A DNA stretch of 64,000 nucleotides. Origin: Mya arenaria. Its lineage: Eukaryota > Mollusca > Bivalvia > Myida > Myidae. Shown in pieces: positions 27,197 to 53,451 of the stretch. Within the stretch, counting starts at the first letter, position 1, and every line of letters begins with the position of its first letter. The stretch lies in NCBI RefSeq assembly GCF_026914265.1, contig NC_069136.1, forward strand, positions 21,822,051-21,886,050. The letters run 5' to 3'. Below the pieces are notes generated by a model, which saw only the letters and a program-made list of their open reading frames with translations, was not told where the DNA came from and did not search any database. The position numbers were made by a program, and so were the translations under genes.

Positions 27197-27362
27197 ACGC
27201 TTTGAGGGTGGAAATTACAATTACGTTCACAAAATCACATTGGAATTTTTCAACTGGAATTCCAACTGATGTAATGGTATTCCATTACATCAGTTGGAAT
27301 TCCAGTTGAAAAATTCCAATGTGATTTTGTGAACGTAATTGTAATTTCCACCCTCAAAGCGT
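27197..27362. repeat. perfect hairpin: 81-bp arms, 4-nt loop
   Basis: The left arm starts ACGCTTTGAGGGTGGAAATT and the right arm is its exact reverse complement over 81 bp, with loop TATT at 27,278–27,281. The arm sequence resembles the segment at 25,440–25,495 (TTTGAGAGTGGAAATTACAA). Confidence 0.9.
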
Positions 27363-27689
27363 TTATTAATAGTCTCGGCATTCGCCTTTGTTCACAAAAG
27401 GACAAGCTTGATATCAGTCAGGTAGACGTGACATAGGATATTATTTATTTCATATGCCATATGCAATCGGATATGTCAGGTAGGTAGAATGGAATGGATA
27501 GCAATTGTATTGGGTTTTTGATTATATTTATTTACGGAGACATCAATCTCAATTGCAAATTAAAAAGAACTGATCTTGTTTTAATAATCATTGTCTTAAT
27601 TAATTTAAATTTGTGAATTGATGCCACGATCGCTACACGTAAGTATATAAGACGTTTACAAAAAGGTTTGTAATGTACATGAACAGTGT

Positions 27690-28182: not shown

Positions 28183-29356
28183 ATGAACTGTGTTTGTAAT
28201 TTTGCAGAGCCGAACGAGAGAGAACGATACGAGTGGGATGTCTTCATCGTTCATTCTGGAGAAGATGAGGAGAAAGCCAAGGGGATTTATGATGAGCTTA
28301 GTAAACAGGGAATTCGATGCGTTGCACAGTTTTGCTCGGAGGCGTTTACTCCAGGAAAATCTGTGTTTGACAATATTGTAAAGTTGATTTCAAAATCGCA
28401 TCGCACAATTCTCTTGCTGTCAGAAAATTCGAAGAAAAGTTCCTGGATAAATCTTGAAACGATTCTTGCCATAGAACAAACACAGCATCGCGGCGGGAAT
28501 AACGATTTAGTATTGAGGATTTTGCTTGTTGACATAGATGAAAAAGACGTACCCGCACTTCGAACAGGTGTTCTTCAAAATGTCCCAGCCCTCTGCATAA
28601 GTTTCAAAGAGCAAAACTGGGTCGAGAAAGTGAAATCTAGTTTAAAAGGTAGGTAGTTTTGTTTCATTTAACATCGATGCTTAAACGTATTCAATGATTC
28701 AATGATAAAACTAGTCTCTTCCTTAAAATACACTTGAAAGAGAACTACATTCTAAATAATTATGTTTTCTTGCAGAGCGGATTGCACTTCCACAGGTGTT
28801 GCACGTCGGCAGTCTAGCCCATGGACTGGTTTTCAACCATTTTACTGGGTTCGTTACTTTCATGGTTCCCAGTAAGTATATTCAGATAATCGTATTGCTT
28901 TAACAGTCCATTTTATATGTATATGCAATGATTTTATCTGTCTGCTGTGTTGACTCTTCAGTGTATCAGTATTTCAATTGTCACAGAAAATGTCACAATA
29001 AATTCCAGGGTTAAAATTGGTAAACCTCAAATACCACATGCTTCTGCCGTATTCCTGCAAAACGCACCCGTCGCTCTCTGGGAGGGACGATGCATCTGGA
29101 ATCGAAATAGTCACTGAGAAGATTGAGGCTTTTGAAGAAGACTATCAGGGGAAAAGCCGGCCATTCCATTTGACAGTTTACACACTACAAAAAGGCGACG
29201 AGGTTCGATTTAAATATAAAAAACTGCTACTGCTACTGCTGCTGCTGTTGCTACTACTACCACCACCACTATCACCACCACCTCCAACACCACTACCACC
29301 ACCAACACCACTACTTCTACTTCCACCACTAATAATTATACGATATAATTAAAATA

Positions 29357-29449
<93 letters not shown>

Positions 29450-32400
29450 GATAATCATCATAAAATAATAATAACTGAAACCTTCTCAAACTCTTTTTAT
29501 TTGTAACTACATTAGAAGAATATCCTTTAGTTATTCAACATTGGAAAACACACACTATGTCCATTTTTTTAGAAATACCGATTTTTCGCCGATATGCCCA
29601 ATGTTCTGACTGCTATATACGAGTTGAGAGAGCGAAGCCTGATGTCTGGTGTCGACAGTCGCCTCCAATTGGACCGATTTTACTACACCTATAACAAGGT
29701 GTTCAACCATTCCAAGAACAAAGATTATAACGAGACGATTGTTATGCTTAAATATGACGGTATGTCTAAAACTACGTATTTTCTTATCTGTATTAACATT
29801 CCCGCTTTTACATTTTCTTATTCGTGTACCCACTAACAACCCCGTTATTAATTTTATGTATTTGTATCCCGCTAAAAGCCGATACCAAAATGGTCTTATC
29901 TGTATTCCCGTAAACATCCCAGTTCCTAAGTGTTTTACATGTAAACTTTTCTCGTTCCTAGACCTACCTGTATCCCCGCTAACCACATTGTTCATAATTT
30001 ATTTTCCTCTGTTCCCGCTTGCATACCAGTTCGTTATTGTCTTATTCATATTCCCTGTTAAAAACTCTTTCTTAATGATCTTACATAATTATATTCCCGC
30101 TAACATCCCTATTCCTAATTGTCTTACCTGTGGTCCTGCTTTCAGAATTTTGTATTTCGCATGTTTACGAAAAAACCTTTAAACACGTTTTATTAACATT
30201 TTACTATATAACATTTGTCTATAATGGTTAAGTTATAGTATATTTCAATATGGTCCACAAAGTAAAATACTGTTTACAGAAGTATTGTTTAATATCAGAA
30301 TTGGCTACTTTTTTTTGAAAAAGAGCTACATTTTTTTCCGGTATGCCAGTTTTGTTTAATAAATATAACCGGTGATTTCTATTCCAAAAGCTCGAAATTA
30401 AGTATAGTTTAACGCTAATCTGATTCTTTATATGTATTTATATTAAGCGGACACTGTACAATAATTATAATACCATGCCAATGTAAACTGTATTCAGGGT
30501 CAACTCAATATAGCCTAAAATATCCTGTTTAACGCATACGGATCCAGGCCCAACACTTAAACGAGTGAAGCTCAACGTCATAGGACAACAAACACACCCA
30601 TTACAAAGATTTCAAAATCGTCATCGTTCAATGTTCTTTTTATCGCCTAAATAGCCTTTCCAATAGAACCTTAGTATGAACTCTCTGATGATAGGGGTCA
30701 AACCAGTTTGCCATTCGGAACTCCTCGGCCATTTTATCGAAAACAACCTCGGATGTATTTGGACGGTTTACATACTCGAAAAGTGGTACGTTTAAGTCCG
30801 CTGCAAGTAGATCGCGTAGTAATTTTATTTAGCAGTTAAACTTTGTGACTTAACTCATGGGATTCTTAATTATGTTTGCAATAATACAATTCAATGGCAA
30901 TCAATTTCGACTTAGATCAATAAATACAACTCTAAAACACTACATTTAATTTATGATATAATTCAAAATTTTACGAACTACTTCAACTGATGTACGTGCA
31001 TACATCCGAGGTTGTTTTTGAAAAAAATGGCCGAGGAGTTCCGAATGACCAGTTTGCGAGCCATTAACCATATACCGGTCCCAGCAGTTTCCAACAAAGC
31101 ATAAAGTGCATACGGGCACAAGTCAAAACGTCTCAAACAGGAAGCACAAAAAATAACAGAACAACAACAACAAAATACGTGTCGTTCCATGTATTCCACC
31201 TAAGGATGGCCAATGTTCGCTTGAGGCTTAAACCGATTTAATTATAGTAAACTTAACGAGTAAGCTCTATTTTTTGTGTATGAACTGTTTTTAGATCAAA
31301 AGAGGACCTACTACCAAGAACTTTACGATGCCCTCAAAGCAAGCGCAACTGCTGCAAAGGAGAGTCCAACTTCTGGTCAACATAAAGAAACCGTGATATA
31401 TAAGAGGGACGAGGTAAACACAAGTTTTGTGTGTTTTTGTTCCAGAAAGCTTTTTAATATGCAGTTTAAAGGCGTCCCTATCTTTTGTGGAAGCATAAGA
31501 AGTTATAGTAAAATGACAGATTTTTTATCCCGATAGAGATGAAACTTCTGTTAAATTTAAATTATACATTTAATGAAGGGATAAACTATTATTGAGCTTT
31601 GTTTTGTTTATTAGAAGTGCATTATGTGGTTAACTCTTTTGTAATGACCCTTATGTAATACAAAACAACACAATCATAGAATATAAATTGTTCGTATAGG
31701 TCGAGAGCTCAGGTGCCGATCGTGCCTCAGCACCAGAAGTTGTTATCATATGCACAGAAAACGAAAAACTTGATAGAGAACTTGGAGGAGATATCCAGAC
31801 ATTTTTGGAGAATAAACAAGTCCGCGTTTCTGCGTATGCTGGGGATGTTGGTAACGAAACTGTCGAATGGTACATTGTGATTCTCTCGAAGGAATCACTT
31901 AGAGACGAGCTCGTCTCGAAACAATGCCATGACATTTTAGCTGACAGCATTGATCGGAATGAAGTTCGATTGGTGATTGTGCTTCGAGAACTAAACACCA
32001 ACGAGGTACCGGAAACAATCAATTGGGTGACACTACTGAACGCCAGTGAGCCAACGTACCTGCAGAATATTTTAAACACAGTCAAAGGTAATAAATCAAC
32101 ATGTATTGTAGCTGTTTGCTTATAGATGTTTTTTTTTTCATTTTGCTAAAAACAGACAGTTATTCTCGAATTAAAATCTGATAGTTATTCACCATTAAAT
32201 CTGTGTTTAATCCGGCGTTTTTAAAATATTGCCAGTCGTCACACACATGATGCAACTGTCTTGGTCTCTAGGATTGGATAATGCAGCCACGAGTTTATTT
32301 TTCTTAACGATTTACCATAATATCATTGTCTTGACTTATCGACGACTCGCGGCTTGTCAATATCGCATATCGTATGCCCATTTTTCTTTGTTCTAAAGGC

Positions 32401-35058
32401 GGAAAGATCGAGATGGAGCATCGACTACCCGCGGGTGATGTGGCCACCGGGCTGACGTCGGGCTACCTGACCAACTACTTGCGTCACACCCTGTTCCTAC
32501 GCTCACCACGGGATGAGGGACACCTTGGTAATATTGAGAGTTTTAATCCGTACATGTCCTATCATATACAACACAGACATTTGTAGGTTCAGGAATATTG
32601 TATTGAAAAGCGGAATGCATTTAGTCTTGATATGCAAAAATAATAATATAATAAAACAAAATAATCGTACATTCTTGAATAAATACCTAACAGTTGGACC
32701 ATTCTCCAAAGCCATACTACACTCATTCTGCAGTCTAGCTAGCACCGTGCTAAATACTAGTAATTTACGTAAACATCTAACGGATTGAAATGTAAATGTA
32801 CATTAAACATACCATTTTTAAACCTGTTGGATAACGGTAAAAATACGTCAATGTGGTAGTAGAATAATTGAACACATGAAAATGATAAAATGAAGGAAAT
32901 TACATACTCAGAAAATATATGTCTTATGTATTTCATGCAGATTTACGCGAAAGAATGTTCAAATTTATGAGAGAGAACAAAATAACTTGTGGTCTTATCC
33001 CAAAGATGTTCGTGATTTGCAACAAATCTTGCACAATTGACCAGAAGGTGGCGGAGACTGCTATGAAAGGGTATGTTGTCACATTTTTATAAGTAAATCA
33101 TATTGAACACTCGGGTTGATTGAGGCATTCGGAGCTCCTCGGCAATTTTTTTCGAAAACAACCTCGGATGTATTTGGTCGGTTTACATACTCAAATAATG
33201 GCACGTTTAAGTCCGCTGCAAGTAGATCGCATAGTAATTTTATTAAGCAGTTAAAGTTTATAACTTAACTCTTGGGAATCTTAATTATGTTTGCAATAAT
33301 ACTCTTCACTGGCAATCAATTTAAACTTAGATCAATAAAAACAACTCTAAAACACTATATTTAATAAATGATAGATATAATTAAAAAAAATTACGAACTA
33401 TTTTAACTGATGTACATCCGAGGTTGTTTTCGATAAAAATGACCGAGGAGTTCCGAATGTGATTGACGTTTTTCATAGACAGTAACGACTTTATCGGTAA
33501 TTGACCGATTTTTCAGAACATTTATCAAGTTAACAACGTTGATTTTGTATCGTTGTTAACTTTAAAAGGTGAACTGTTTTGTGATGTGCTCATATATTTA
33601 AATTTAACTGGTGCCACTGAAATAGCTATATCAAATAATTTTTAGAAATACTGCAAGCCACAAATGTAAATGCGAAAGTTTCAGAACAATACAAATAATA
33701 AAGTTATTTAATATATGATAGTGTTATTTACTTACTACTTATTTTCATCGACCCGTTGTATTTCAAGGATATATGTTTTCATTTTTTAATTCTCTATATA
33801 CAAAAGAAAAAGAACGGTTTTCCCGCACAACACTAAAAGCGATTTAAACATGTGCGCGCGCATACTTTTAAAAGTGTCATGCGGTAACCATAGTTATTTT
33901 GGGTTATTGGTGAGAGGTTATTTTTGTTTCAAAGGTTGTCATTGGATGACAAGAGAAAGGTGGAATCATTTGGTGAACTGCGTCTCCCACCCGTGTATCT
34001 ATCATCTGGGGCGCAGCAGAGAAGGCCGTTGTATCTAATACCTTTTAGGTATACAAACTCGGAAACGGGCAAAGTAAGGCTTTTTGTATTGTATACGATG
34101 TAGTTTACGGTACAGACAATTTAGTCAGTATTCATAAAAATTGCTTTCAACAAAAACATGTTTGTTTTTTTCCTTATTTGTACTTCCTTTCAAATAAAAA
34201 AAGCAGAATGTTTGTTGTTTTTTTTTAAATATTGATCAAAATATGTTTCTCTTTTATGTGAAAAATCGTTCGGAAATATAATTGAAAACCTTATTTCTAC
34301 TCTTTCAGGAGTTTTGTTTCATCGCGGAATATTGCACTCCACTGCGAACTCTATATAAGATGGCGAACGACCTTCCCCTTGCTGGTCTCCACAAACATGA
34401 GATGTACGCGCAGATGGAGCGATTTGTGAGCCTCTTCCAGGAATTTACACATACTCCTAGAGTAAAGGATACAATCGGGGACTTCACAGACGTCGTGCAG
34501 TTGGTCATCCATGATGGTAGTTTTTTAATTGGACATTATTGTTTCTCTTTCAAGGCGCCCCATTTTGCTTCTTCACCTCACTGATTAAAATAAACTTAAC
34601 AAAACGTGCTTGTTGATCAGATTAACATGCACGATCAAAACGCCATTTTGTATTGATAGAAGCAGTCAATATGGACCGCCTCAAAAGTGGCATCGAGAAG
34701 TTCATTTCAACACACGATTTGCGTACAGACACATAAAAAAATAAGAGCGAAATTTTGGCACTTTCATAACTCGGGAATTTGTGGCCACCGGCATCATTTA
34801 TTGAGAACCCCCCCCCCCCCCATTTATAATGGTTATTTTTTTATCTGTTCACAAATCGTATTAGTTTTTATCAATTATTTTAAATGGGTTACACAAAAGA
34901 GTGCATTTACATTGAAAACAATCGTTTTAATCAACCTATATTATGTCAAGTAAAAACATTTTGTACAATTTGTTTCAGATGTCGGCGGGCAAACGTTAAT
35001 GGACGCCTTGGAGGACGCCTTCTCGTCAGTTAATCCAAAGGACATGCTCCAAGTGTAA
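28183..35058 (+). CDS. TIR–STING–TIR–STING protein, gene A (11 exons)
   Basis: Exons: 28,183–28,648; 28,776–28,871; 29,009–29,202; 29,573–29,759; 31,295–31,413; 31,700–32,087; 32,399–32,527; 32,941–33,070; 33,935–34,073; 34,309–34,516; 34,979–35,058. All junctions are GT–AG and all phases agree, giving 711 aa. TIR1 (about 16–150) has YEWDVFIVHSGEDEE and WINLE (Glu92). STING1 (about 156–314) has LAHGLVFNHFTGF and SRPFHLTVY, but FFADMP where human STING has EYATP. A basic linker (315–354) leads to TIR2 (about 355–483; VRVSAYAG, no WxxxE). STING2 (484–711) has DVATGLTSGYLTNYL, Arg600 and EYCTPLRTLYKM. There is no transmembrane segment. By family knowledge STING binds cyclic dinucleotides and TIR can cleave NAD or signal; the actual ligand is unknown. 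The 5' end is uncertain: TTTGCAG before codon 9 could be an acceptor for an upstream exon. Confidence 0.9.
29212..29465. repeat. CTG / CCA / AAT–ATT microsatellites in gene A intron 3
   Basis: CTACTGCTACTGCTGCTG, then CCACCACCACT units, then (AAT)n followed by (ATT)n meeting at a palindromic centre near 29,405. They fill most of an intron that gene B does not have. Confidence 0.9.
30702..31057. mobile_element. Mutator-like MITE family M1, copy 1, 10-bp target duplication
   Basis: CATTCGGAACTCCTCGGCCA at 30,712 and its reverse complement end at 31,047. ACCAGTTTGC is repeated exactly on both sides. It lies in gene A intron 4, between the STING1 and linker exons. About 336 bp, no coding potential. 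Confidence 0.88.
33117..33468. mobile_element. Mutator-like MITE family M1, copy 2
   Basis: Bases 33,126–33,459 carry the same ends. Flanks are TGATTGAGG and TGATTGACG (8 of 9 match). It lies in gene A intron 8, 55 bp after the exon that ends at 33,070. Confidence 0.85.
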
Positions 35059-35360
35059 CAGTTCACATGTTGTCCGTACCAGACCGCATAACGTGTGTGC
35101 GAAAAAACAGAAGTGTGGACATTTTTTTTTTTATTTACAATATCCATCCAGGTTTATATCATTAGGGACAGTATCGAACATTTCAACTGAACATATATAT
35201 TTTTAGAAGTTTATTTTCTTTAGCTTTATTGTTCCATAGCTGATGTTTTATGTGTTGTATATAGGTAAAAAGTCATTTGACAATCAGTTTAAATATGGAT
35301 ATTTTAAACATTTAAATATTTAACACATTTCTGGGAAATGTAAACTCTTTCCTACCCTTA
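35059..35360. other. 3' flank of gene A, no feature recognised
   Basis: AT-rich. Presumed 3' UTR of gene A, without a clear AATAAA in the first 300 bases. Confidence 0.4.
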
Positions 35361-38300
35361 TAAGGCCATCATTTTTTTATTAAATGATTTACGAGATTTT
35401 TTTCAAAAAAATTGAGTCGGGGGGGGGGCAAATAAAAATAAAAATAAAATCAAAAAAAGTGAGCGGACGACCAAAAAAATAAAAATAAAAGTACCCAAAG
35501 GTATTTTTATTTTTATTTTCATATTTTCATTTTTAACTCAGAATATTGTTTTATAAAGCTTTATATTATGTGTATGCACGTTTTTCTTCTATTAACTTAC
35601 TTCAAAAATACTTAAACAGCTGGGTTTTTTTGCTTTACACTTCAGAAACATATTTGTGTACAAATAAAAAAAAGTTTAAGATATATGGAAAACAGTAAAA
35701 CCTTTTTAACAGATTTTGAAGCAAAAAAGATGTTGAATAGTAGAGACAAATCACGCTTGAATATTGTTTAGTGCATTGTCTAGGGAATTTCTGTATTATG
35801 AACTGTGAAAAAAATACTGTTGCCTCTGGCAGAGATTTTATAAAAACATTTCTTCATCCTAAAAACGAGATTTTGATGTCTGTTCTTGTTTTGGCATTTT
35901 TCGTTTGGCAGTTCCTTTAGATGTTAACCCAGGTTTCACATATATACAGGTATATAGCACTACTAAACACCCAGCCAGTCTCAAGCCTGCTAGTATGAGG
36001 GGTCTCTGTGTACATGTATTAGAGCAATACTCATGTATTTGCAAAATAAACCTCTTTTGAATGCAAGTGTTTGTATTGTGTATTTGGCTAAATAATACAA
36101 CAGGGCCTTGACCTTGAAGATTTCTGCACATAAGCTACATGTAGATGTGGTAAACATTAAGGAGTTTATAATGGAGTGGACATGCGATAGAGGGTAGGCA
36201 GATGCACAGAACAATTAGGCCCTGATTTCTTGAAACTTCTTAAGCTTAACAGGGTTGAATTACTTATTTCAATCAGAAAATAACAAACATCTATTTAAAA
36301 CTCAAAATTCTATTTATTAATTGAAAATAAGTGTATCTCATCTATTACAATAATAATTTTCATTAAAAGTGTAAGATATCTTACATAAATAAATATTTAT
36401 CCCTACTTGTATGTGTTGTATCATAGCTTTTTCCTTATTGGGTCTACATTTTTAACAACATAGTTAAAGTGTTGTTTAATGAAATAATATCCATCAAAAC
36501 ATGCCAGATATTAAAGTCATACTATTTAAGATTTCACTCAATATACTTTGAGAACACCATCCACCTCTGCTCATCAAACTTGAACTAGAACATGTTATGG
36601 GATGACTAGATAAACTGTGTTGACTTGACACCTTATAAAATATAACAGTATAAACTGAATGCCATTTTTGACAAGTGTGATCATTGCAGTATTACACACT
36701 TGATAAAATTATCTACACCTACATCAACTGCATAATTCCATGCAATTAAAACAAATATTACTGACTCTGTAACCTCATGAAGCGCCAAAGTCACACTTTC
36801 ACAACAGTTGCCTATATTACAGGCTTCAAGCACTTGCACACATATGTTGTGAGAAATGTATGTTGTAGTCACTTCCTTTTTTCACTTTCAATGCATTCCT
36901 GGTCTTCTCTGGTTTTCCATGCTCAAGACAGGTCTGGCAAATCTGACGAACTATGCCCAACTCCTCTATCACGCGTTTGAGGTCTTCGTTTTCAGCCAGC
37001 TCCGTGTCCCAACATTGGAAGCAAACATCGTCAAACTGCATCGTTTTTCCTGGAAATGTTAGATGTTTTGTGTTGACATAACAGCAGGCAGTATCACCAT
37101 ATTTTACATATATTAATATTTAACGATAAAAAGGCTAAGCATATAAACATGTTTGAATATAGCTGGTCTGCTTGCCGGATAAAGACAGTCCTGTCATAAG
37201 TTTGATACATTTCCACAATTGCTTCTTTCTGCTCTGCTTACTTCAGTATTTGCCAGGACTAATATATCTTGCAACATATTAAAAAATAATATTACCTGCA
37301 TAATATGCAGCCTCCATCAAAGAATTACAGTTGATTTTCTCCTGATGCTTGTATTATGGTAGACATCAGCGTGAAATAATGGATTTCCACATGCATACAC
37401 AAGTTCTTCCAGTACTCGCATTATCGACCTCTTTTCGGCAGAGGAAAGCTTTTTGGCCTTGTAAACCACACGCTGCTTGCCACACTCTCTGCAATTAGGA
37501 TTTTTTTTCACTTTGGCTCAGATTAGAAAAAATAGCATTATAATTATGTCATAAACATGTATAATAAATTAAGAAATATGTGAATCTAAATGACAAAAGA
37601 ATAAACAAATATCCCTGAATGCTCAATGTTGTAGCTATGCACCAGGTGCACTTTTCCTTACAATGTTTACTTCATTGCAAAGTGATAGTTTGGCACTCTT
37701 AGTCTTTGTCAAATAAAATTGTCCATTTACCAACGTGTCATACTAAGTACATTAAATAGGGGTGAATCATATAGATGCGTGACATTAGCCCGATTATTAA
37801 GCCAACATTTATAGCAGTGGCATTTCAACTACAGCGTGGTGAAGATATGTTAATTCTGGACTTTTCTTCAACAAAACTAATAAAAAATTTATATTTGTAT
37901 CTTCTTAATTCTGGATTATTTTTTGTTTAAAACTGATATCATGTTGATGCATACCCAAATATAAATGCTTTCAATACCCAGAATTCGGTGTTGATCGCAG
38001 TTTCCGCGTCATCATCAGCTGCCCGATCTACTTGGACATCCTTGTCAGCTAGAAAATCTGCTACGAATTGCGATAATGTAATCTGAAGATCGATTGATTT
38101 GATACAAGTTTCTTCCCTGCGATTTAAAACAGTTTTTGTACGAAAAGAAATGATACTGCCGCCATGTTGCAGACAGATAAAGAAAGTCGTTAGAGTGATC
38201 TCCCTTGACGAGCGAAAACACGTCGTAACAACTCGGCCTTTTCCGGCAAGCTTGGAAGAAGCCGAGTGAGGTCCGAATGCCTTACGACAAAGGGAAATAA

Positions 38301-38474
38301 TTGCTTCGGGGAAAAATTAAGTGACGATTTTTTTTCTCTTTTGCTCCTAATTTACAAGGTCGGCGGATGAATTGAAAATAAAACATATCATGATCTCTTT
38401 TATTTTTATTTCATTTTCACAGAAAGTAGGGTCGGCGGGTTTGTAAATCATTTAATTAAAACATGATGGCCTAA
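35361..38474. mobile_element. 3.1-kb TIR-bounded element with TAA target duplication
   Basis: GGCCATCAT at 35,364 is mirrored by ATGATGGCC ending at 38,471. The ends stay similar for about 29 bp (ATTAAATGATTTAC in both). TAA flanks both sides, which fits PIF/Harbinger-type TWA duplications, but no Harbinger nuclease was found. The interior carries a cysteine-rich coding region on the minus strand. It lies between the tails of the two TIR–STING genes. Confidence 0.6.
36826..38120 (-). pseudogene. cysteine-rich zinc-ribbon-like protein, three exon-like blocks, probably broken
   Basis: Minus-strand blocks: about 38,115–37,990 (QFVADFLADKDVQVDRAADD, ends at a GTATTG donor-like site); 37,508–37,300 (NCRECGKQRVVYKAKKLSSA, then VYACGNPLFHADVY); about 37,046–36,826 (after acceptor TTTCCAG: DDVCFQCWDTELAE, then IVRQICQTCLEHGKP). 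Pairs of CxxC spaced this way suggest two zinc ribbons. In the middle block the expected INCNSLMEAAYYAG lies in a different frame from the upstream part, so there is a frameshift near 37,345. Exon phases do not join cleanly. The function is unknown. It sits within the TAA-flanked element, so it is likely a transposon passenger or transposon protein. Confidence 0.45.
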
Positions 38475-38820
38475 GTAAGTGAAATACGATTAATCATTTA
38501 CAGCGTCAAAACATATTTGATGTTAAAGGGAAGGAGACTGGCTTCTTAAAAATGCTCGATCTCATCAGTGTCTATATGTAATATGTTTATATTAAAAAAG
38601 TGAGGATAGTTGTCATAGTTTCATGAACGTAGCTGTTACACCCTTTGTGTAAATTAAATAGTTCACTATTTTCGTCGTTATAGCAAGAACATTTTACATC
38701 CGACAAAACATTAGGGACTTGCTTAATATCCAAATAGTTATTACTGTACACACCAAGTTTCAAGAATGCATATTTTATAATTTTTTAAGTTATGACAGTA
38801 AAAACACATGACATTTTTAT
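38475..38820. other. no gene recognised
   Basis: AT-rich. A segment with TACACACCAAGTTTCAAGAA-type wording resembles decayed repeat at 49.2–49.5 kb. Confidence 0.4.
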
Positions 38821-39190
38821 GTGACACTCTTATACAAAAACGTTACATACACAACTAAAACAAACACACATTTTGAGTGATACACCTTTGACTACTTACT
38901 AAACAATGCATTTATGGAAAATATGAATTACTATTAACAATATTATAACTGTGTATTTGATAGTTGAATACGCAAAAATATTAAATTATTGGTGAATGCT
39001 TAAAGATTTACTGTGATCTACTATGGTCTCATATGGTAGCAATACCGTGTTTTCTGCACATTTCTTTTAAATTAAACTCGGTATCCCTCATAAGCATCAT
39101 TATTTTCGACATTTGTTCATCCTTTTGGTATATTAAAACAATTGTATTAAATGTGTTTAATCTTATTTGGGAATAATAGCGCATCTTTAC
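38821..39190 (+). mobile_element. MITE family M3, copy 3
   Basis: GTGACACTCTTATACAAAAA to CTTATTTGGGAATAATAGCG. The interior matches copy 1 at 19.4 kb (AATACCGTGTTTTCTGCACA). Confidence 0.7.
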
Positions 39191-39299
39191 TGTTTTCTTT
39201 GCCAAAGTTCCCATTTTTGTCTGACGAAAACCATACAAGTTTATGCCTGAATCCCCAACTTCCCACAAGCTTACTTTCATGAAGTAGCTTTTAATTTTC

Positions 39300-41395
39300 T
39301 TTAGTTATACAGCGGTCAAATCAAAGTGTTATTTTCACTAATATCGTTGCCAAAGCAACCACTTTTGTCCAGCCAACAAATCTCATAACACATAGTTTGA
39401 ATACTTTTTGAATTAGTGCAGCGTCCAGTTTTCCAGACGGACGGACAAAGGGTTACCTATAAATCAATAGGGTACTTATAAGAAACTGTGTCAAATATTA
39501 ATGTATTTTATGTCTATGTGAATATTGTTTGACAATTTCAACTGTAAATGCCATGTTTTAACTGTATTTTATTCAAAATAAACACAAATTCTATTTTAAA
39601 TTTTCTTGTATTTATTTTTACATAGTTTTTTTATACATAAATAGTGATATAAATAGCCTTTTAACAACAACCAGGCGGTGTATAATTAAATCACTTTGGA
39701 CGCCTTTTTTACACCATTTTACTTCTATATACAAACATGGTTATATTAATAAGTTCCAATAAGTATCAATTGCTATAAATATTAAGATTGACAAATCAAT
39801 TGTCACCTCATATGATAATATTATAATTTTACTACCCTGATACTTTTATCAGCAATTTAAAACTATAAAGACACTATACAGTCGCACGATAGTATTAGTA
39901 GAATCCTTGATAAATGTTGGATACAAACGTTTGTTTTGTTAAATAAGTTTAAACATGTAAATATTTAACTAACAACAGTAATAAATGGTGTTTAAAACTG
40001 AGTTTATATTTATTATGATAAAAACAATAAATACTACAAGGACCAGCCCGGTAATCAAACAATAAGCAAAGAACCTGTTGAAGAACAAAGTTCGAAAGGC
40101 ATCCATCACACTTGTGTTTGACATTTTCAACATTTCTCTACGACCTCAACGTGTGGTTGCATCGCACTTAAAGGGGAAAATATAATTGTATGCCGAAAAT
40201 ATTCACGGTTACTCATCTTATGCATAAATATGTTAACTCATTTAACTTTAATGATCACAACCACAAAACAAAACATGTGTTTAGCTAAAAACGTTTAACC
40301 TTTATAAGTATCGTTTTCAATTAATAGCTTTTTTCATTTAAGTCAAATGTGTTTTACATAATAATGCATTAAAATATACAATATATACTTAATTGTGCCC
40401 CTTTAAATTAATTGGTGTCTCAGATTTCGGGATGTTAGTTTCTATTTATAATAAATTAAAATTATTATATTGATACAATGAGAACTTCTGGGACAAACCC
40501 AGTAGGCGTATATTAAAAATAAAATCCCTGTTAAGAGGCACAAGGTAATGGGCACAGACGACAATTAACAAAAGACACAAACGTATAAACACCACACACA
40601 CACACACACACAAACAACCCAAGTAGGTCAACAACGCATTAAAATAGTTTTACTGATAAAAAAATCTTATTTGTTAGATGATTAAAGAATAAAACCACAA
40701 AAGATCTGGAACACTTTGATTTTAACGAAGGTACATTAAACGTTTGTCCGTGCCATTGAACAAGACAATGGGAAGTGTCCTGGTTTGTCAACAAGTGGCG
40801 TTAAGTGCAGTGTGGCGGTTGTTGTGATGTGGCGGCTGTTCATTCGCTCTGTACTTCGTCCATATTGACGTTTATAATTTTCTCGATGTTCCTGATCATT
40901 GAATGTTTCCATAACTAGTCTTGATAACAGAAAACCGCCCGTACAGAGCCTGTGCAAGTCGTATGTCGCACTGGTCATTTCTAGTAATGTATGAACAGAC
41001 TCAATCGAACCGAAATCGATGTTTATATACATGTTCTTTGACTGTAGTTTGTGCGTCGAAAAGATTATTTGCTATTATAAAGTTCTGCAAGTGAACATAT
41101 CATTTGTCCAATACACTGCTAGGGATACTGAGCAATGCATTTGCTTGCTATAAAGGTAAAACTGAGATCAGTAACTTCTCCAACCTGGACACAGTCTGTG
41201 TCCGTCCGATCGCATGATTGGTCACAATGGGTTTGTATAATACGCAAAATGTTGTTTAACTAGGGAATAAATTGCAATTGTAATACTGATTCATTTCAAA
41301 ACCTTGTCCTGTAATGCCAACATTATACACACGTAAACTACCACAACCTATCATTTCGAATAATTGGATCCAAACGTTTTCATTAAAGTAAGGGT
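39300..41395. other. intergenic, repeats only
   Basis: Contains a short GGACGGAC tail at 39,434, a CA-microsatellite repeat at 40,565–40,730 (related to 20.7 kb) and AT-rich sequence. A minus-strand open frame at 40,736–41,032 (98 codons; IDFGSIESVHTLLEMTSATY, ending NV before its stop) has no recognised domain and no splice context. It could be a fragment of an unknown gene. Confidence 0.45.
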
Positions 41396-41492
41396 TTCAT
41401 CCATCGACTAGGTCTTCCGCCAGAGCAAAACTACGTAAAGGAGCATCAGGATCAGAATCACGTCGAACAGGTTCTTTGTAAATAAACCCGGT

Positions 41493-41542
41493 CTAAAGTT
41501 GAAGAAGCTTCTCGTCAATGATAGTCATCAATCTCTTCGGCT
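41493..41542 (-). CDS. possible alternative last exon of gene B (tandem duplicate)
   Basis: A copy of the gene B terminal exon lies immediately downstream of it, with acceptor TTTTGACAG preserved at 41,543–41,545. Used in the same phase it would encode EPKRLMTIIDEKLLQL and then TAG, in place of EPKTLMTAIEETLLQET. The similarity extends about 110 bp. Whether it is spliced is unknown. Confidence 0.4.
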
Positions 41543-44500
41543 CTGTCAAAATCATCAGGATCAGAATCACGTCGAACAGGTTCCATGAAAATAAACCCGG
41601 TCTCTTGAAGAAGCGTCTCCTCAATGGCAGTCATCAATGTCTTCGGCTCTGTCAAAAAAAACAAAGTGAAACAAATAAAGCGCTGATATTCAAGTGAAGT
41701 TTTATTTACTGGGTTGTACTATAGACATGTATAAACAATTTCTGTCGATAGATGTAAACCTGTATTTACAATGTATCGAAGTAAACATGTAAAATACACA
41801 AATGATGATATCCAGTCCAGATTTTTTTTCTTTGTGTGAAATAAAAATGTGTTTTTTAACTCTGTCCATGAACCTTTATTATCAGACACTGTGCTAGAAT
41901 ATATAACATGGATATGTGATATTATATAATGACTTATACTCTACTATTGTTATTAAGAACGATTTTAGTTTTCTTAAATGGAACTCAGCAATCAAAACGC
42001 ATAGTAAGTAAGTACGTGAAAGTTTATAAACCAAAAATGAATCCGTGGTTTACATAATAACAAAAACAAATATGTTTACTTTACCTTTGTAGTACAGCAG
42101 TTTTGTGTATTTCTCGAAGTCGCCGAACTTTTCTTTCACCGCCTCTCGAGAAGTTATTTCTCTGTACGTCTTTACAAACTTTTCACCCTGTCTCACTTTG
42201 TCTTCGGCTGTTAAACCAGCGAACTGGAATTTGGAAGCCATCTGGTGCAGACATCCAAACGGAGTACAAACTTCCGTGACGAAGTAAACCGTCTAAAATG
42301 AGACGCTTGATACATTTCGACTGGCCAAACTCTGATTTAATAATATTTTATTGCATGAGAACACATTTGACAATGATAATATCAATGCAAATTTTAACAC
42401 AATATTTAAACCGACATAATAAAATCAAGCATGTAAAGGTATTGGGCCACGAGTTTTGCCAACATCAGTTGCGGCCCTCTCCCGAAACGTCACATTCTAT
42501 ACCAAGCAAAGGCGTTATATAAGCAAAAACAATGAGAGTAATAGCTAACTTATATTGCATTGTTTGAGTGGGAAAACATGATACTACAGTAGAAGTAAAG
42601 AAAGACGTGTGAGAGAAAGCAAGATCGAGACCAACACTCAATGTGCATACCAAGTTTAAAGACCCTACACCAAGTATTTCAAGTCATTGCTCGGAAACGA
42701 AAGCACATTTAATTGTTTTTAAGGTCATCAATACCTTACCCTTTATATGGATCATTTATTGACATGACCAATGTACACACGTCGAATGTTTTTGATCGTA
42801 TAACGAGTGTGACGGCGAAGTGGCGGACGACGATGCAGAGCAATGCAAATAAGAGCAGTGTTTGTGTCTGCCATACGTCACCGCCGCCATGAAAAGGGCA
42901 AATTTCAGAGGATACAATGTCGCGAACATATATGTTCACACCTTCCTCAATTTGGTTCTTCTGTATATTGAATAATATCCCTTTGCTTATGATTAGACTA
43001 AATGGAAAAGTTATGTTAACCTTCTTTGTTTTATCATTGTTGTACTTGTACACATGCAGTTTGAACTCCCTGTTCATTTGTCCCCCGGTGTCAGCAAAGA
43101 CTGGCAACAAATGTCCAACTTCCTCAAGACGTCCCTGTTCTTCTGTTGCACTGTTTAAACACATATTCGCATTATCCATTAAAATAAAATTACCAGAAGG
43201 AGACCAATAAACTACCCATGTAATTAATATTCCTGAAATACGTGTCACTGCATTCGGGACTCCTCGGTCATTTTCAATCGAAATCAACTTCGGATGTATA
43301 TGGACGGTTTACAATGTCAGATTTTTTTTTGCATTAAACTACGCTGCAAGTAGATATCACGTAGTAATTTTAATTTAGCAGTTAAACTTAAAAACTTTAC
43401 TCTCGGGAATCTTATTTATTTATGCAGTAATACACTTCACTGACAATCAATTTAAATTTAGATATACAAAAAACACATTAAAACACTACTATTTATTAAT
43501 ACTATTATTTAAAAAAATACGAACTACTTCTACTGATATACCGGTTTCGATGGAAAATGGCCGAGGAATTCCGAATGTTATCACTGGCATTTCAATGATT
43601 GTTTTTAACTAAAGAAAACAAATTGAAATTCTTAAAGGTAAAGTAAATACTTCATATGTGAATGAAGTATCATTCTGATAATTTAATCTGCAATGTATGT
43701 TAACCATCCCTTTTTATTTCTGATAATATCGACTGTTTAATATGATAATTATTCCCACCTTTTAACGATGGAAACGGAATGTCTAAGAAAATTCATCAAA
43801 AAAATCTACAACGAATACCCTTCATTTGCCTCTTCAGCTATCCTGCTTGGTGTGTCACATGAAGCCGGGCATAAGATGCAAACCTTGTCCAAACAACCAT
43901 TTGCAATGTTGCTATCTTTTAAGAACTTTCTGATCCTTTGAACAAAATCTGAAACGGCATTTACACAATAGAACACATGTCAAAAAAATAAATGCACTAT
44001 AATTTCGGACGCAAACTCCGTGTAATATTCTTGACAGAGTATCGCAGCTGATCAATGCTGTTTCCGTTTCCACCGCTAACCAATGGGCATCACTTAAGTT
44101 ATATTTTCGCCGGAAGGACGGGCTTTGTCAACACCATGTGATTTATACGACTCAAAGACGAAAACGACGACTCCAACACAATAAAAAAATAATTTTGCAA
44201 TCAGTTTAGAGTTCTTATTTGGCTTATGTAGTATTGTGCTCATTTTGTCACCGTGTCCAACGAATCTTATCAAATAATTTAACATTCAAAGTAACATACA
44301 AGACCACTTAACACCAATTATTTACCCAATTTCAAACACCTTTCCCCGTCCTCCACTACAGCTGGTGTGAACAACGTATACTTGAGATAATTGATAAGGT
44401 ACGCCCAACACAGACCTGTGGCCACATCACCAGCCGGCATGCGCTCCTCCATTGTAACAGGCCCCCCTGCAAAACAGTACCAGTCTTTTAATTACATAAC

Positions 44501-47500
44501 GATTGTTATTACATAACGGTTGTTATGAATATATTTTAACGTTATTATAACGTTCTTTTTCATAATTTCAATGTTTGACATACTTTCGAACGAGTCCATT
44601 TGAAAGATAACGCACATACCTCTGATCGTGTCATAAAGGTGTTCGCAGCACTTTTTATCCGATGTCGTCAGCAGTGTCACCCAGCGTACAAAATTTGGCA
44701 ATTTCTCTATGCTTATATTGTTCAACACAGGAATTACTTTCACCTCATTATCCGACACACTATCCCCCAACAGCTGAATGCAGTTGAATGTCAAGGACTG
44801 TGATCGCAAGGCATCCTCTGAGAAAACAAACACGTACCATTTATAGGTGTTTGCAATTTGTAAAAGAGGTCCAACGCACTGACTATCTAACGCCACTTGG
44901 ACTTTTTTCTCTTTCAGATATTCAACTATCTGACAAGCAACTTCCTTGTCCTCTCTGCAATCCTCAACACAGGAAACAAGTACACCTTCTGTTACCTAAA
45001 AAAGAAATGCTAACGTAACAAAAGGTCTCTCTTCTATTCAATCAGGGCGAGTAATCACGTGACCTCGGTTGTGATCCATGCGAGATCCCCTTTAAGTCAC
45101 GTGATTCCTCACCCTGTACTACGATATCTCACTAGTTCTTAACGTCCGCCAAATGTATATACAAGCTATGTTAGCCCGGTAAATAAGACATTATGACCAA
45201 GCTTCGCCGAAATTACAGTTTATTGTTATGTGCAATAAAATCAGTTATTATTGAATGTGTTAATGTGTTGTCATTTATTGAACTGTGCTCATCTAGCAAG
45301 TTTGATGCAAGCATATGTTTAAGCGAAGATCTGCACGAGGTTGGCATTTGACTCGACGATGACGACATCAATTTTCCGACCAAAATAATAAATTGGGCTA
45401 TTGAAACTGACCTTTTCAGATTCCTGTCGACCCCAAGGTGTTCCACTTTTCTCAACTTCTTTCCTAGCCCGGTTGTCTTCAGCAACACTCTTCCTCACAG
45501 ATTCAAACAGTTTCTCGAAGTGACTAGTGGTTTTATCTGCAAACATTTACATTTGTATACATGTTTGTAAAAACTGTTATTTATAAATGGTAAAGCATAA
45601 TTGAAAACTGCCAGCCACTGCCTTTTTTATCAATAAACGGGTATTTGTTTAATTGTTAACACCAATTTTGGATGAAACGAATCGCAACAAACTTAGTTAT
45701 CATAGTTAATTGTTGAAATTCTGTTTTTAGTTTTTATTACGTTTTGCATGAAAAGAAAATTAAATGTCCTTGAAAGCATGTCACGTGATGACATCATACC
45801 ACACCAGAGACGCATTGCCATAAACTTTGACGTAATCTCACACGTTGACGTCATGTTTACTAACATATTTTTCTTATCGCAGCTCAAATTATGATGCACA
45901 ATGATTTTTCTAGAGGTCCGAATTCAAATATGGCTTAGCAATAGGACAAAAAAACAAAGCAAGGGTATGGTCAGACTGGTTAAGAGTGTTACTAAAAAAA
46001 GACTGAATTTCAAATTTGAATTGCATTTAGTTGAATTCTTGAAATATTGAACACATATGGAATTACGTAACATACAAGTGTGACCTGATCACTGCAACAA
46101 TTAATACATACCGTCATAATCTAGCATTCTAAAAGGGTCATAGCCTTCGGAAGAGAAATCAGCATGGTGCACGACCTTGTTATAAGTATGCTTGAATCTC
46201 TCCACTTGCAATAGGCAATCAACCCCACCCACTCCATGATACCACAGCTGGTAGATACAGTTCAAAACTGGTGGCATGTCTGCAAAAAAGTAGTAGAATT
46301 CGCTTCCCTTGGATATTTTGTAGACTGTAATGATTATCTTTCTTTCCTTCCCCATGTGATCCTCTTTAAATTCAATATTTTCTCCGTCTTTTTTAATTGT
46401 AATTCCCGTGCTTTCATCTGTGCCTTCTAATGAGTTCAACGTTTTACACGACAATGGAACAAGCATATTGTACTTTCTGCAGAAATGTTCGGAGAATTTT
46501 TTGTACATAGAATGCCTTTTTAAATCATCCTGTAGATCTGAAATAAAATCAACATTAAATCAGTTGTATGTATGATAAATTAAAAGTAAACTTTACTGTT
46601 GGAATAAATGTGTGGGCAATTTGGTGAACGGTACAACATTACTACATGTTGGACATAACAGAATAAGAAGAAGGTATATTTCATATCCAAAAAGTAATAC
46701 GGCCCATAAGGACAAACACAATATTTACAAATATTTACAATATATTTTAATATACACATACATGCTTAGAAGGAACACATTAATTGTTTAAACAATGCTC
46801 TGAAGAAAACAATATTACTTTATATTAGTAAGTTGTATAACATCGCAAATACTGTATACAATATTATGATTCTAGTACTATATGCGTCAGATTTGAAATT
46901 ATAACAAAATCATTTAGAAATAGATTTCATTATGGAATAAGATTGCATGCTTAGAATTATAACAGTAAAATTATTTATATATTTAAATATCGTAAATGCA
47001 TATGTTAATAAATTAAATATGTAAATCTGTTTACATATCTAAACATGCAAGTTCAGACCTAGCCACTAACATAGACAACATTCAAAGATGAATACTGAAT
47101 CGAATGGATACCAGTAAGATCACATGTAAGTTTTATTCTTAGATTTGTTTTGTATGAATGTAAATTTAAATATACTTAAAAAGTTCTAAATACTCAATAC
47201 ATACGTTTGATCATGTAGGACAAGAAACCGTTGAAGTGGGAAAACACGAGCCCATGTGCCAAACTTCCGACAGGCAATATGTCATGTACTTGAATGGGCT
47301 CTGCAAGAAAGTAGAGCAACACTTATCTAGCACTATTTTAGATACACCCACCTTTTAACCAGCTTGAGGACGGTAGCTATGTATTGTATCCACAGGTGTT
47401 TTAAAAAAGAAATGTAGTTGTTTATACTGCAGTGAGGCCATGGCCATATAAATATATTGTTTTAATGCCAAGTAGACACTCGTTAGAGTGAACAAAATTT

Positions 47501-48208
47501 AAGGGTGAAGCTATTTTGATGCGTTTGTGGTATGTTGTGTTTTTCACGCTCGAGGGTGTCTTTAAAGTCAATTGTTTATTGTCGGATATCATGTAGCAAT
47601 ACAGTGTTGTTTGGGTCCTTATATTGTGGTTCGAAACGGTCTATATTTGATTGTTTTACTACTAAGCTTGTCCCTGTAGTTTTTGTTGTATACAAAACAT
47701 GTAACGTACCAAATAAAAACAAACATGTGTGTACCTACCAATTAGCCGTTCACGCAAACTTTCCTGCCAATTCTTATCACTCAAATCTACGAGAATATGA
47801 GGTATTGTCTTAAACTGCCCTCGTTTCAAAGGTAACACTTCTGATTCTTCAATGTTTACCAGGAGCAGTCTCAAGGTTAAATCATGGTCTTTTCTGTGTT
47901 GTGATTGCTCTATGGCAAGAATCGTTTCCAAGTTGATCCAGGGACTTTCTAGAGCATGTTTAGTCAAGACGAGAGCTGTTCGGTGTGATGTATTGATCAG
48001 TTTTGATATACTTTCCATCACAGGTCTCCCTGTTGGAAAGGTATGCCCGTCGAACTGTGCTGCACATCGCAGACCAGGCTGCAGATCTTCTGACAAACCT
48101 TTATATATTTTCTTCACAATATCTTCATCCTTGCCAGCGTATATGAGAAACACATCATGGTCAAAGTCTGTCTTATATGTCTGTACATACAATGCAATAT
48201 TTGAATCA
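41515..48208 (-). CDS. TIR–STING–TIR–STING protein, gene B (10 exons found)
   Basis: Minus-strand exons: 48,208–47,739; 47,300–47,205; 46,537–46,112; 45,536–45,412; 44,995–44,620; 44,466–44,326; 43,948–43,819; 43,150–43,021; 42,292–42,085; 41,648–41,515. All phases join (about 745 codons). Four exons have exactly, or within one base, the gene A lengths (96, 130, 130/139, 208). TIR1: DHDVFLIYAGKDED and SPWINLETILAIEQ. STING1: LAHGLVFSHFNGF, GKERKIIITVYK, YYFFADMP. TIR2: KWYVFVFSEDALRS, with no Glu after the Trp region. STING2: DVATGLCWAYLINYL, NREFKLHVYKY and TEVCTP. No membrane segment. The first exon begins at an acceptor (TTTCTTTTCAG) in phase 2 with no in-frame ATG before it, so an upstream exon is missing. 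Intron 8 has an unusual GTTAAC donor. The role is as for gene A. Confidence 0.9.
43242..43586. mobile_element. Mutator-like MITE family M1, copy 3
   Basis: Bases 43,251–43,577 begin CATTCGGGACTCCTCGGTCA and end AATTCCGAATG. Flanks GTGTCACTG and TTATCACTG agree at 7 of 9. It lies in gene B intron 7, the intron that corresponds to gene A intron 8. Confidence 0.82.
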
Positions 48209-49627: not shown

Positions 49628-51365
49628 TTATTGCAGCGTCATGTGTCTTTTCCGGACATACGGACATGTACTGTCGGGCGGAAGATAACCTATATACCCC
49701 TACGGTGACATTGGATATCCACTTTTATACATGCACTTATATGCACACGTGGAAGAGAAGAAATGGAGCAAGCACGCATTCTGGTGAGTGCTGTTGTTGT
49801 AAACCCTTTTTTATATAACAAAAAAGCAAAGATGACTTTCGACATCTAATCTGAAATAGTCTTAGCTATTTTGACAAACCTTTCTCAACTCATGGTAGGG
49901 GTAGAGAACCAGTCGTCAAATCGTCATGTCAAGTGTCTAAACACGTTTATGCACCCTCTTGTTGCAGGTGTTATGATTTAATTCTTAAAAGTGGTTATTT
50001 AAAATACGTATGAAAGTCTATGTACTGAACAAACGGGCGAGCACAACAGTGGCCGACACATCCCTACGACAGTTTGTTAAATCATGTTACCAATAATTTA
50101 ATACAGTAATTTACATCTTACCGTTTCGGTTCTCGATCAAGCAAACGTTCTTCACCTTTTTCAGCCATAACTATTGTCCAAGTTAAAGTTTCAGTCCATC
50201 TTTATGGAATTTCCAGCTCACCAGCTCTTTGTTATGTTTTGAAATGTTATGTATGTCTGTTATTAATGTCGGAAAATAGCTCAATAAGCTAATGTTTCTT
50301 GTAAGCATGTACCCGACTTTAAGAATAAAGATTCTTGTATGTTGTATCCGAAAATTTATAAGTATCCGAAGTCAAAGAGCATCAAACACCGGCATTTTAT
50401 ACAATGTTGAAACAATACATATTAACTATTCATTAAAAAATCCATATAAAAGGCCTGTGAAATAGTATCAATAAAGTTCTAGCATCATCAAAACATGCTA
50501 TACTGTACTGTTTAAGAAACAAAAACACCACAAAGACTAACTTAAAGCGAAAGTTAGTTCTTCCGGAAACCTAAAAATAAACCAAGTTCATGGGATCCCG
50601 AAAAACTAAGATGCAGACAACAATTTTCGTCTGGAACACTTAATAAAAATAATGGGATAACTTAAGGCAGTGTTTAAACCCCTTTTTACTAGTTTTCAGT
50701 ACTCATTGTTTTCAGGTGCGACCCCAGCAATTGACGTTTGACGTAACTTAGGGACGCAACCATACTCAGGACCAATATTAAACGCTTTAAAATGTTGGCA
50801 GTTTTTTTTAACAATTAATTTCTTGTCAGTAATGGTGATTTTTGAGAATATTATTTTACTCTTATTCTCCGATATTGACATAAAAAGTAAACTTTGAAGA
50901 TTTGAGGGGGTGGGGTGTTCCGTGTGACCCCTACCTCGCTAGTGCAAATAATCACCTTAATCGCCAAAAGTTCTGGAAAGATCTCTTGGTTAAATATTGA
51001 CTTTTTTGTACATCGTTTCAAATATGTTTGATATTCTGACATCAGAAATTGAACACACACAAAACACGAGATATTTTATATTAAATTATGAATGAACAAG
51101 TATAAAACGAGAAGTATGGACGATCACGATTTTTAAAGTTTGGCCAACCTTATTAAGGTGCAATATGCATACTACATCTATTTCATTGCCTTTCAAAGTG
51201 GGACGCGCACCATTTTTAGAACCGTTATATTAACTTAGCGATGAAAATGTTGCTTGGGAACACAAATAATATAACTATCTGTGACTCTGTGTTGGTATTC
51301 TAATAATATACCCAAGTATTATTACACTGAGCACAAACAACACAAAGTTTCACAAGATGTAGAAA
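49628..51365. other. no gene recognised
   Basis: AT-rich. Contains a GGACATACGGACATG tail near 49,655 and minus-strand open frames at 50,696–50,881 and 50,851–51,060 without domain or splice context. Confidence 0.45.
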
Positions 51366-51368
51366 TTG

Positions 51369-53451
51369 TCAGCGCCCTGGCACAGGACATGTAGTGAGGT
51401 CCGACATAATGGTCAAGCTGTTGTCAAAGCACTTTGCCTTTGTCAGCTCACACCTTGAAACAGAGGTACGAGTGAGTTCATTAGCATACCAAACAACATC
51501 GCTGAAAAAAGAGCTGGTGAAATTTTAGATGGTATGTTATTATGTTTTTCATATGTCGTCACGCATCATAATTATAAAATAAGTTTTAAATAACTGTAAC
51601 GGTCCGCTTTAGGCGGCGGATGTGCGTTACGCTTCTATGCGCTTGCTAGAAAGCTCGGCTATCTGGAGTTTGTTTGTTTGATGGTCTCGCACGTTACAAA
51701 TGGTGGCAGCGGTGGGATGATGACAACTGCCGGAACGGAGTTGCCTTACCCATAAGATTCCCAGTCCAAGACTCGGGTAGAGTCTTCTCGGAGGGGAAAG
51801 TAATGTAACGGTCGGCTATCTGATGTTTGTTTGTTTGATGGTCTCGCACGTTACATAACGTTTAAGATAGTCAAATCTATTAATGTATCATACTCGGGAG
51901 GAGTACACATGTTAACTATGATTATACGTAGCGTAGCAAGCACATAATGTCGTCATTTATAAGTGTCGATATATTGCCCGAGATTTACTAAAAAGAACAG
52001 ATGAGCGTTGAAAAGCTACGATATTTGTAAATAATGGTTACTTACTGGTTAGGATAGAGCAGTCCGTTACTTCCACAAATAATAACTAGGCCGCTGAACT
52101 GACATGAAACGGCCGCCGCGTTTGAGCAGAACACACTCTGTATTATACTGGCCATTGGGTCCACGTAGTCCGTCGTCGAAGGCGGAGGTGACGCCGTACT
52201 CGTTGTCATTATGACGGTGGTTTTCGGCGTAGCGTCGGTCGTGACCGCGAACGTCACAATTGGGGCACCAGTAGTAGCTGTTGTAGAATGCAAAGTGGTT
52301 GAATCACAGCTTCCGTTTGTGACGATATCCAGTGTCTGGCCAGTGAGACAGGCAGACTGTACAAGAAAGCAGCTGAAATGATAGTTCGTATGTATTGCTT
52401 TACTTCATTCTGGCTAAGATACATACACACACACGCACACACACACGCACGCCCGCCAACAAGCACGCACGCACTTACACACACACGCACTCACGCACTC
52501 ACACCCTATCAGACACTTTGATAGCCAAGAAGGTGAGCAAACACGCATATACGCACACACCCACTCATGGGTGTGTTAATGTACACCCCCACACACGCAC
52601 GCATGGACAGATGCGCTTACAACAATATCCACCATACGAATCACCAACCGCTACAAACTCGTCTCTAGTCGCAAGTACGACCGACTTACTGGTTCTCGTA
52701 CGTGCGTCCGTCCGAGCCACACACAGGGGTTCCAGTTCCATTGCAGTTGATGGACGCCAACTCGCCGCACAGATTTGCCGTATTGAAAATCGCCGCGTCC
52801 GTTACACTGGTGCTATGGCCAGTGACATGAGTCCCTTCGGTTATAAAAAAAGAACTTTATAGGGACTAGACACCGTATGGTCCAAAAATTGGCAAAAACA
52901 ATGTTTCTTCGAAACAAGCCAAGAACTCAATGGGAGTAGGTAGGAGGCCGATAACACATCATTTTACAAGATGAGGATAATAAACGCAACAATCATGTTG
53001 CTGTCAGCTGTGTTTCCCTGTTTAAAAATAGTGCATAATGGTTTCCCAGTTTGAATCACATCTGTCCATGAGAACAGATAAATATACCCTCGTTATCTTT
53101 AAACTTACTGGGATTACGTATTAGACAACCTCACTATATTTCGATTAAGAAAAATGCGCAAAAACTGCGAAAGATGCATGTTTTGTAAGCGATGGCATAT
53201 ATCAGTATGTATGATTCAATGCAATGTACATACCGATATCAATTTTCTGTAAGTTCTTGACATTTTTATCTTTCAATTGTATCCTCGGCCCTTGGTGTCT
53301 AGTCCCTTTAATCGACCAATCCACGATCGGTAGTATTGACTTATTAATATTAACATTATCTTTCTGCCACCTACTGCGCAGTCATTTATCTTATCTTATC
53401 TTATCTTTCACTAAATATGTTGACCCATTTGTTCTCCGACAAGCATTTTAA

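Follow-up and report, generated by a model that had tools for sequence, protein, structure and literature searches.

The question raised by a 64,000-nucleotide (nt) stretch of the Mya arenaria genome (assembly GCF_026914265.1, contig NC_069136.1, positions 21,822,051 to 21,886,050 of the forward strand; here referred to as the window) is whether two loci within it, genes A and B, each encode one protein in which a TIR–STING unit is present twice, and how such a protein might work. An earlier note on this DNA had proposed two TIR–STING–TIR–STING gene models, and both could be rebuilt with open frames and GT–AG introns throughout. Gene A comprises 11 exons at 28208–35058 (+) and 702 codons, with no internal stops and GT–AG borders in 10/10 introns. 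Gene B, counted without the first exon described below, comprises 10 exons at 48208–41515 (−) and 744 codons, with GT–AG borders in all nine introns. The two genes are arranged tail to tail, and Pfam and PDB searches placed the domains of both in the order TIR1–STING1–linker–TIR2–STING2 within a single frame. As judged from the sequence, the fused double form is a single gene predicted to encode a single chain.

The evidence that carries this conclusion came from further copies, found by searching the window's own genome, the single genome covered, with B, A and D as queries. Copy C lies on contig C14. Copies D and E lie on contig C8, 0.78 Mb apart; their proteins differ by 3 residues in 717 (99.6% identical) and their DNA is 98.9% identical over 15.5 kb, and they are possibly a recent duplication or one allelic pair placed twice. 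Copy F, also on contig C8 (L037/L038, ~9.68 Mb), is truncated and carries exons 4–11; its exons 1–3 gave no match at E ≤ 1e-3 with D as the query. It also contains an 88-nt repeat after exon 7, and its exon 7 intron measures 1,818 nt versus 1,065 in D. Copy G, on contig C15 at 8.5 Mb from the window, is very divergent, and its exons were partly read by eye: TIR2 and the first STING2 exon match clearly (3.3e-10 and 1.1e-7), the TIR1 and STING1 exons only weakly (0.002 and 0.02 at best). G is probably a double TIR–STING gene as well.

In D, a single uninterrupted exon of 516 nt (9441–9956 of L033) covers the STING1 end, the linker and the whole of TIR2; the E copy of this exon is identical, and F has the same open exon. 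This arrangement answers the doubt whether each locus holds one gene or two in favor of one, as the earlier note had assumed, and the argument for fusion is carried by D–F and not by G. All five genes modeled (A–E, with A–C taken without their small first exons) are open across all four domains, and A, B and C maintain the frame across a phase-0 intron that they keep between the linker and TIR2. That each locus would consist of two tandem single TIR–STING genes, with the joined models arising only because a gene boundary was read through, we regard as extremely improbable. Two AATAAA signals do occur in the long intron (1,535 nt) before the exon of A that holds the STING1 end and the linker, and two more in the linker–TIR2 intron of B; nevertheless, besides the common exon in D, E and F, the TIR2 exons of A and B lack an ATG ahead of the domain and are directly preceded by an in-frame stop, and the intron phases are conserved in A–C.

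The exons of gene A are:

27461..27479 (+), candidate first coding exon, MQSDMS plus the first base of a Glu codon, donor GTAGGT, from a phase and donor scan only
28208..28648 (+), exon 1, TIR1, SSWINLE kept; Pfam TIR_2 1.3e-16, TIR 1.1e-8
28776..28871 (+), exon 2, STING1 start, 96 nt
29009..29202 (+), exon 3, STING1, first helix ~14 residues shorter than in B–E
29573..29759 (+), exon 4, STING1
31295..31413 (+), exon 5, STING1 end and linker, with the same place (by eye) and phase as the last STING2 exon
31700..32087 (+), exon 6, TIR2, motif W and E lost; Pfam TIR_2 0.037 alone
32399..32527 (+), exon 7, STING2 start; Pfam STING_LBD at 488–655
32941..33070 (+), exon 8, STING2, 130 nt
33935..34073 (+), exon 9, STING2
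34309..34516 (+), exon 10, STING2 core with EYCTP, 208 nt
34979..35058 (+), exon 11, STING2 end, stop TAA

Those of gene B, on the opposite strand, are:

50122..50168 (−), first coding exon, MAEKGEERLLDREPK plus 2 bases; ATG, frame, donor and phase conserved in C
47739..48208 (−), TIR1 exon, SPWINLE kept; Pfam TIR_2 8.6e-14
47205..47300 (−), STING1 start, 96 nt
46112..46537 (−), STING1, a single exon versus two in A
45412..45536 (−), STING1 end and linker
44620..44995 (−), TIR2, motif lost; Pfam TIR_2 0.0017 alone
44326..44466 (−), STING2 start
43819..43948 (−), STING2, 130 nt
43021..43150 (−), STING2
42085..42292 (−), STING2 core with EVCTP, 208 nt
41515..41648 (−), STING2 end, stop TGA

The A and B proteins are 36.8% identical by BLASTP (E value of 1.65e-160). 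The common exon lengths of 96, 130 and 208 nt reported previously were correct. The exon order and phases, reported to be common to both genes, agree at all common junctions from TIR1 on; however, the junction 5′ of TIR1 is phase 1 in A and phase 2 in B, and B lacks the A intron at 29203–29572. This STING1 intron is present in A, D and E and absent from B and C. Given the difference in phase before TIR1, the first exons of A and B need not be homologous. The first exons assigned to both genes in the earlier note begin at or inside splice acceptors. B starts ~2 kb (1.9 kb) further upstream, with an exon running from 50168 to 50122, for a total of ~760 residues. For A, an alternative to the candidate exon listed above is the ATG at 28183 given in the earlier note, within the acceptor tract; in D, the ATG sits in the TIR1 exon. 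The sequence directly upstream of the candidate first exon of A, at 27197–27362, forms a perfect inverted repeat of 81 nt around a 4-nt loop and may be a fold-back element or a feature of the assembly. A frameshift in STING1 of A was also considered, as upstream bases in another frame resembled a lost piece, and was dropped; exon 3 of D starts at the equivalent acceptor, and the ~14-residue gap of A was therefore taken to be an in-frame deletion. Dispersed repeat copies, 75–90% identical, are found in the introns of both genes (30732–30995, 33147–33410 and 43369–43541), and part of the last coding exon of B is tandemly repeated at 41444–41622, the copies being 109 nt apart and 83% identical, with the second copy past the stop codon.

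No membrane anchor is predicted, in agreement with the earlier note: the highest 19-residue Kyte–Doolittle mean was 1.06–1.26 in all five proteins A–E (A–C again without their small first exons). The linker of 24–35 residues, which is followed by TIR2 and then STING2, had been called basic but is not clearly so, the counts of lysine plus arginine to aspartate plus glutamate being 5/6 in A, 6/5 in B, 7/4 in C and 6/7 in D. The C termini vary among the copies.

Pfam scans of the whole A and B proteins, run at a loose limit of E ≤ 10, returned STING_LBD twice and TIR_2 twice in each. STING_LBD exceeded its cut-off for whole A, B and D, with STING2 as the best stretch, and STING1 of B on its own matched the oyster TIR–STING (5.3e-7). 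The latter protein (6wt6) was also the top PDB match of both A (4.2e-14) and B (8.3e-13). The TIR2 domains scanned alone against TIR_2 gave E values of 0.037 (A), 0.0017 (B), 1.1e-4 (C) and 0.062 (D), all below the curated cut-off, and the TIR2 exon of G scored over it (7.7e-8, 33.3 bits versus 28); TIR_2 was the top family in all five TIR2s scanned (A, B, C, D and G). A profile comparison of STING1 with STING2 gave an E value of 7.2e-8 and a probability of 94.6%, and that of TIR1 with TIR2 gave 0.0014 and a probability of only 17.5%; three mismatched control pairs gave E values of 0.37, 0.11 and 0.02. As the TIR1–TIR2 profile match is weak, the homology of TIR2 rests mainly on Pfam.

The tail-to-tail layout and common exon plan of A and B might suggest that one is a recent inverted duplicate of the other, as had been claimed, but the relationships within the family make this very improbable. 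B is 84.3% identical to C and 47.6% to D, versus only 37.8% to A (A–D, 41.1%), and with G as the outgroup A branches first (FastTree support of 0.932; modest evidence, from five sequences and partial domains). A and B are thus neighbors and not sisters: on these comparisons, A stands furthest from the other members of A–D, and the sister of B is C, on another contig. The doubling itself is older. Ten STING domains (from A–D, the oyster protein and 8ydn) gave a tree in which the STING1s of A–D formed one clade (1.000), with the STING2s across a split of 0.985, and in a tree of nine TIRs the TIR2s formed one clade (0.998). The two halves also share introns, with a phase 1 TIR/STING junction followed by phases 1, 0 and 1 and one extra intron in STING2 (places by eye). 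Together, these clades and the matching introns show that the doubling predates the split of A–D. Its simplest origin would be an internal duplication of a TIR–STING unit; alternatively, two related TIR–STING units may have fused.

Between B and C, the ratio of nonsynonymous to synonymous substitution rates (dN/dS) was 0.39 for TIR1, 0.22 for STING1, 0.34 for TIR2, 0.37 for STING2 and 0.33 overall; the linker value of 0.62 comes from 7 changes in 21 codons. Synonymous sites are saturated in the pairs that include A or D, and D and E are separated by 5 changes. In a neutral simulation of the B–C divergence, with 250 of 2,220 sites changed under a simple model without indels or base bias, none of 500 copies was free of stops (mean of 11.5 stops). 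The low dN/dS and the simulated stops argue that B and C encode a full-length protein that works, and the comparison of the two shows purifying selection on all four domains, with TIR2 as constrained as the rest.

The halves have nevertheless become unequal. The S-x-W-I-x-x-E motif is present in all four TIR1s of A–D and in none of their TIR2s, in which W is changed to L or S and E to Q or N, and TIR2 is ~9 residues shorter than TIR1 near what we take to be the BB loop. STING pocket residues were read by eye from alignments, and residue numbers follow human STING. Among A–D, STING2 has Tyr163 and Tyr167 in 4/4, Thr263/Pro264 in 3/4 and Arg238 in 3/4 copies (Lys in D), and STING1 has Arg238 in 4/4, His at 163, Phe or Leu at 167 and ADMP at ~259–262; residue 238 is accordingly Arg in seven of the eight domains and Lys in one. 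On these readings, STING2 resembles known STING pockets more closely than STING1 does; the difference is clear in A–C and smaller in D. STING1 has changed and not decayed, with conserved motifs of its own, VF[SN]HFxG and FxADMP in A–D and HMGKxR in B–D. In the unmodeled exons of G, again by eye, W-x3-E is kept in TIR1 and missing in TIR2, Arg seems to be retained at 232 and 238 of STING1, and Thr263/Pro264 is missing from STING2. The crossed pattern of the halves therefore appears best in A–C, partial in D and least in G.

With moderate confidence, we read the A/B family as a soluble receptor in which a cyclic dinucleotide gates the TIR domains, built as a single-chain pseudo-dimer with divided labor. 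The double protein would be soluble and cytosolic, and STING1 and STING2 would pair, within one chain or between two, to form a pseudo-symmetric cyclic-dinucleotide pocket; the ligand would close this pocket and draw the TIRs together. TIR1 would be the output domain, acting by cleavage of nicotinamide adenine dinucleotide (NAD+) or by recruitment of TIR adaptors, and TIR2, with its Trp–Glu motif lost, would serve as a structural partner of TIR1 and not as an enzyme, labor thereby being divided within a fused dimer. In the bacterial TIR–STING filament, as described in PMC9402430, the partner TIR contributes a residue that completes the active site, which offers a model for a noncatalytic TIR2 as the permanent partner of TIR1. 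The asymmetric receptor envisaged in the earlier note fits the conserved differences between the halves.

Several observations weigh against this reading. The match of TIR2 to TIR is weak in A (0.037) and D (0.062), and the TIR1s form no clade, that of A grouping with the long oyster and TIR2 branches (0.812 and 0.904). STING1 has neither Tyr163 nor Thr263/Pro264, Arg232 occurs in none of the eight STING domains of A–D, and STING2 of D lacks Thr263/Pro264 and has Lys at 238. STING1 of G looks less divergent, so that the division of labor would not be uniform. In the TLR1 alignment, the W–E motif is also present in the TIR of that receptor; the motif being shared with Toll-like receptor (TLR) TIRs, it does not show enzyme activity. 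To our knowledge, TLR TIRs signal without known NAD+-cleaving activity.

These points bear on the alternatives, one of which concerns the output. That TIR1 is a nonenzymatic, adaptor-type TIR recruiting MyD88-like proteins upon STING oligomerization, which would fit either pairing of the STING domains, has in our estimate a little less than an even chance. TLR TIRs were the PDB matches that followed the oyster TIR–STING for A, on TIR1 (2.3e-10), and PMC10732462 groups the TIR of the oyster protein with animal TIRs and calls its role unclear. On the other side, TIR1 of A weakly matches the bacterial CAP12/Pycsar TIR family (4.4e-5, below the cut-off at 23.9 versus 24.7 bits; not listed for B), and the motif Glu is kept in 4/4 TIR1s of A–D, though TLR1 has it too. 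The pairing could also differ. In an ordinary homodimer, STING1–STING1 and STING2–STING2 contacts across chains would create two symmetric pockets with different ligand preferences, or a pocket and a dimerization module, and the pocket-region motifs conserved among the STING1 copies are what a domain with its own partner or ligand would be expected to show. We hold this arrangement to be a tentative but serious possibility; nothing found here speaks directly against it, and the linker of 24–35 residues together with TIR2 would allow either arrangement. At the other extreme, STING1 and STING2 of one chain might form one asymmetric pocket for an asymmetric messenger, with TIR2 as a built-in noncatalytic activator of TIR1, so that signaling would require no second subunit or just weak assembly. 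Such a single-chain hetero-STING seems to us unlikely, but according to PMC9980059, oyster cGAS-like receptors produce the mixed-base, asymmetric 2′3′-cUA, and a ligand of that kind would match a bivalve receptor whose two halves differ.

We also asked how the pseudo-dimer compares with known systems. Vertebrate membrane STING (TMEM173) has the same STING ligand-binding domain (Pfam STING_LBD) and carries N-terminal membrane helices; A–E, in contrast, have no membrane anchor, and their N-terminal domain is a TIR. The STINGs known to us act as symmetric homodimers. A molluscan TLR that resembles two receptor copies on one chain shows a similar doubling, but it has leucine-rich repeats and membrane segments, and its sensor is unrelated to STING. 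Single TIR–STINGs are established in bacteria and oysters, as the earlier note had stated and as PMC10732462, PMC8218723 and PMC9402430 support; the first of these describes eukaryotic TIR–STINGs as rare, and PMC9980059 gives 88% as the share of animal genomes that carry one STING gene. Like A–E, the oyster (Crassostrea gigas) protein (PDB 6wt6/6wt7) has a TIR followed by a STING on one chain. According to PMC9402430, each chain of the oyster protein carries a single TIR and a single STING, and these pair across a dimer interface, whereas A–E have two of each per chain, and their halves are unequal; the oyster STING retains the equivalents of Arg232, Arg238 and Tyr240 (by eye). The bacterial TIR–STING of Sphingobacterium faecium, an effector of the cyclic-oligonucleotide-based antiphage signaling system (CBASS), likewise fuses a cyclic-dinucleotide sensor to a TIR output domain, but it consists of separate subunits and belongs to a bacterial operon, and prok_STING fell below the cut-off in A (0.0061, 17 versus 27.1 bits) and was not listed for B. 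Neither "TIR-STING-TIR-STING" nor another mention of the double form was found in the literature searched, subscription papers being beyond its reach; within that literature, the fused double form is apparently new.

Scans of prokaryote contigs with B and of viral contigs with D, which find close relatives only, gave no confirmed relative. In the Mya arenaria genome, a search with Pfam STING_LBD returned no match, and the same search matched 0/14 control genomes; the STING part of the oyster protein and the STING of PDB 8ydn each gave two matches at E ≤ 10, the best exons belonging to G (0.099) and A (0.047), respectively. These searches, which are of low sensitivity and no proof of absence, revealed no clear single TIR–STING or membrane STING in the genome. 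The full oyster TIR–STING query gave 116 matches at E ≤ 10, nearly all to TIR-bearing frames, many of them 750–1,160 amino acids long and clustered, on several contigs (e.g., C2, C3, C5, C7, C13 and C15), which likely represent an expanded TLR-type repertoire. One frame, C14:18391866–18392342, aligns beyond the TIR end of that query. Elsewhere in the window, an open frame at 8957–10896 (−) combines an OTU-type protease domain (2.8e-9) with the integrase core of a retroelement (rve, 6.7e-10), and beside gene B, at 52042–52401 (−), there is a weak match to a Kazal-type inhibitor (1.1e-4, 22.6 versus a cut-off of 22.8 bits).

Two STINGs and two TIRs tied together, with halves that then diverged, would constitute a natural separation of functions, in which a sensing half and a signaling half could be addressed by swap or removal on one chain. 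The fused chain also opens the question of whether an asymmetric pocket may read asymmetric dinucleotides. Some bivalves have >200 cGAS-like receptors, according to PMC9980059, and fused doubles would show one way in which bivalves may increase the diversity of the receptor side.

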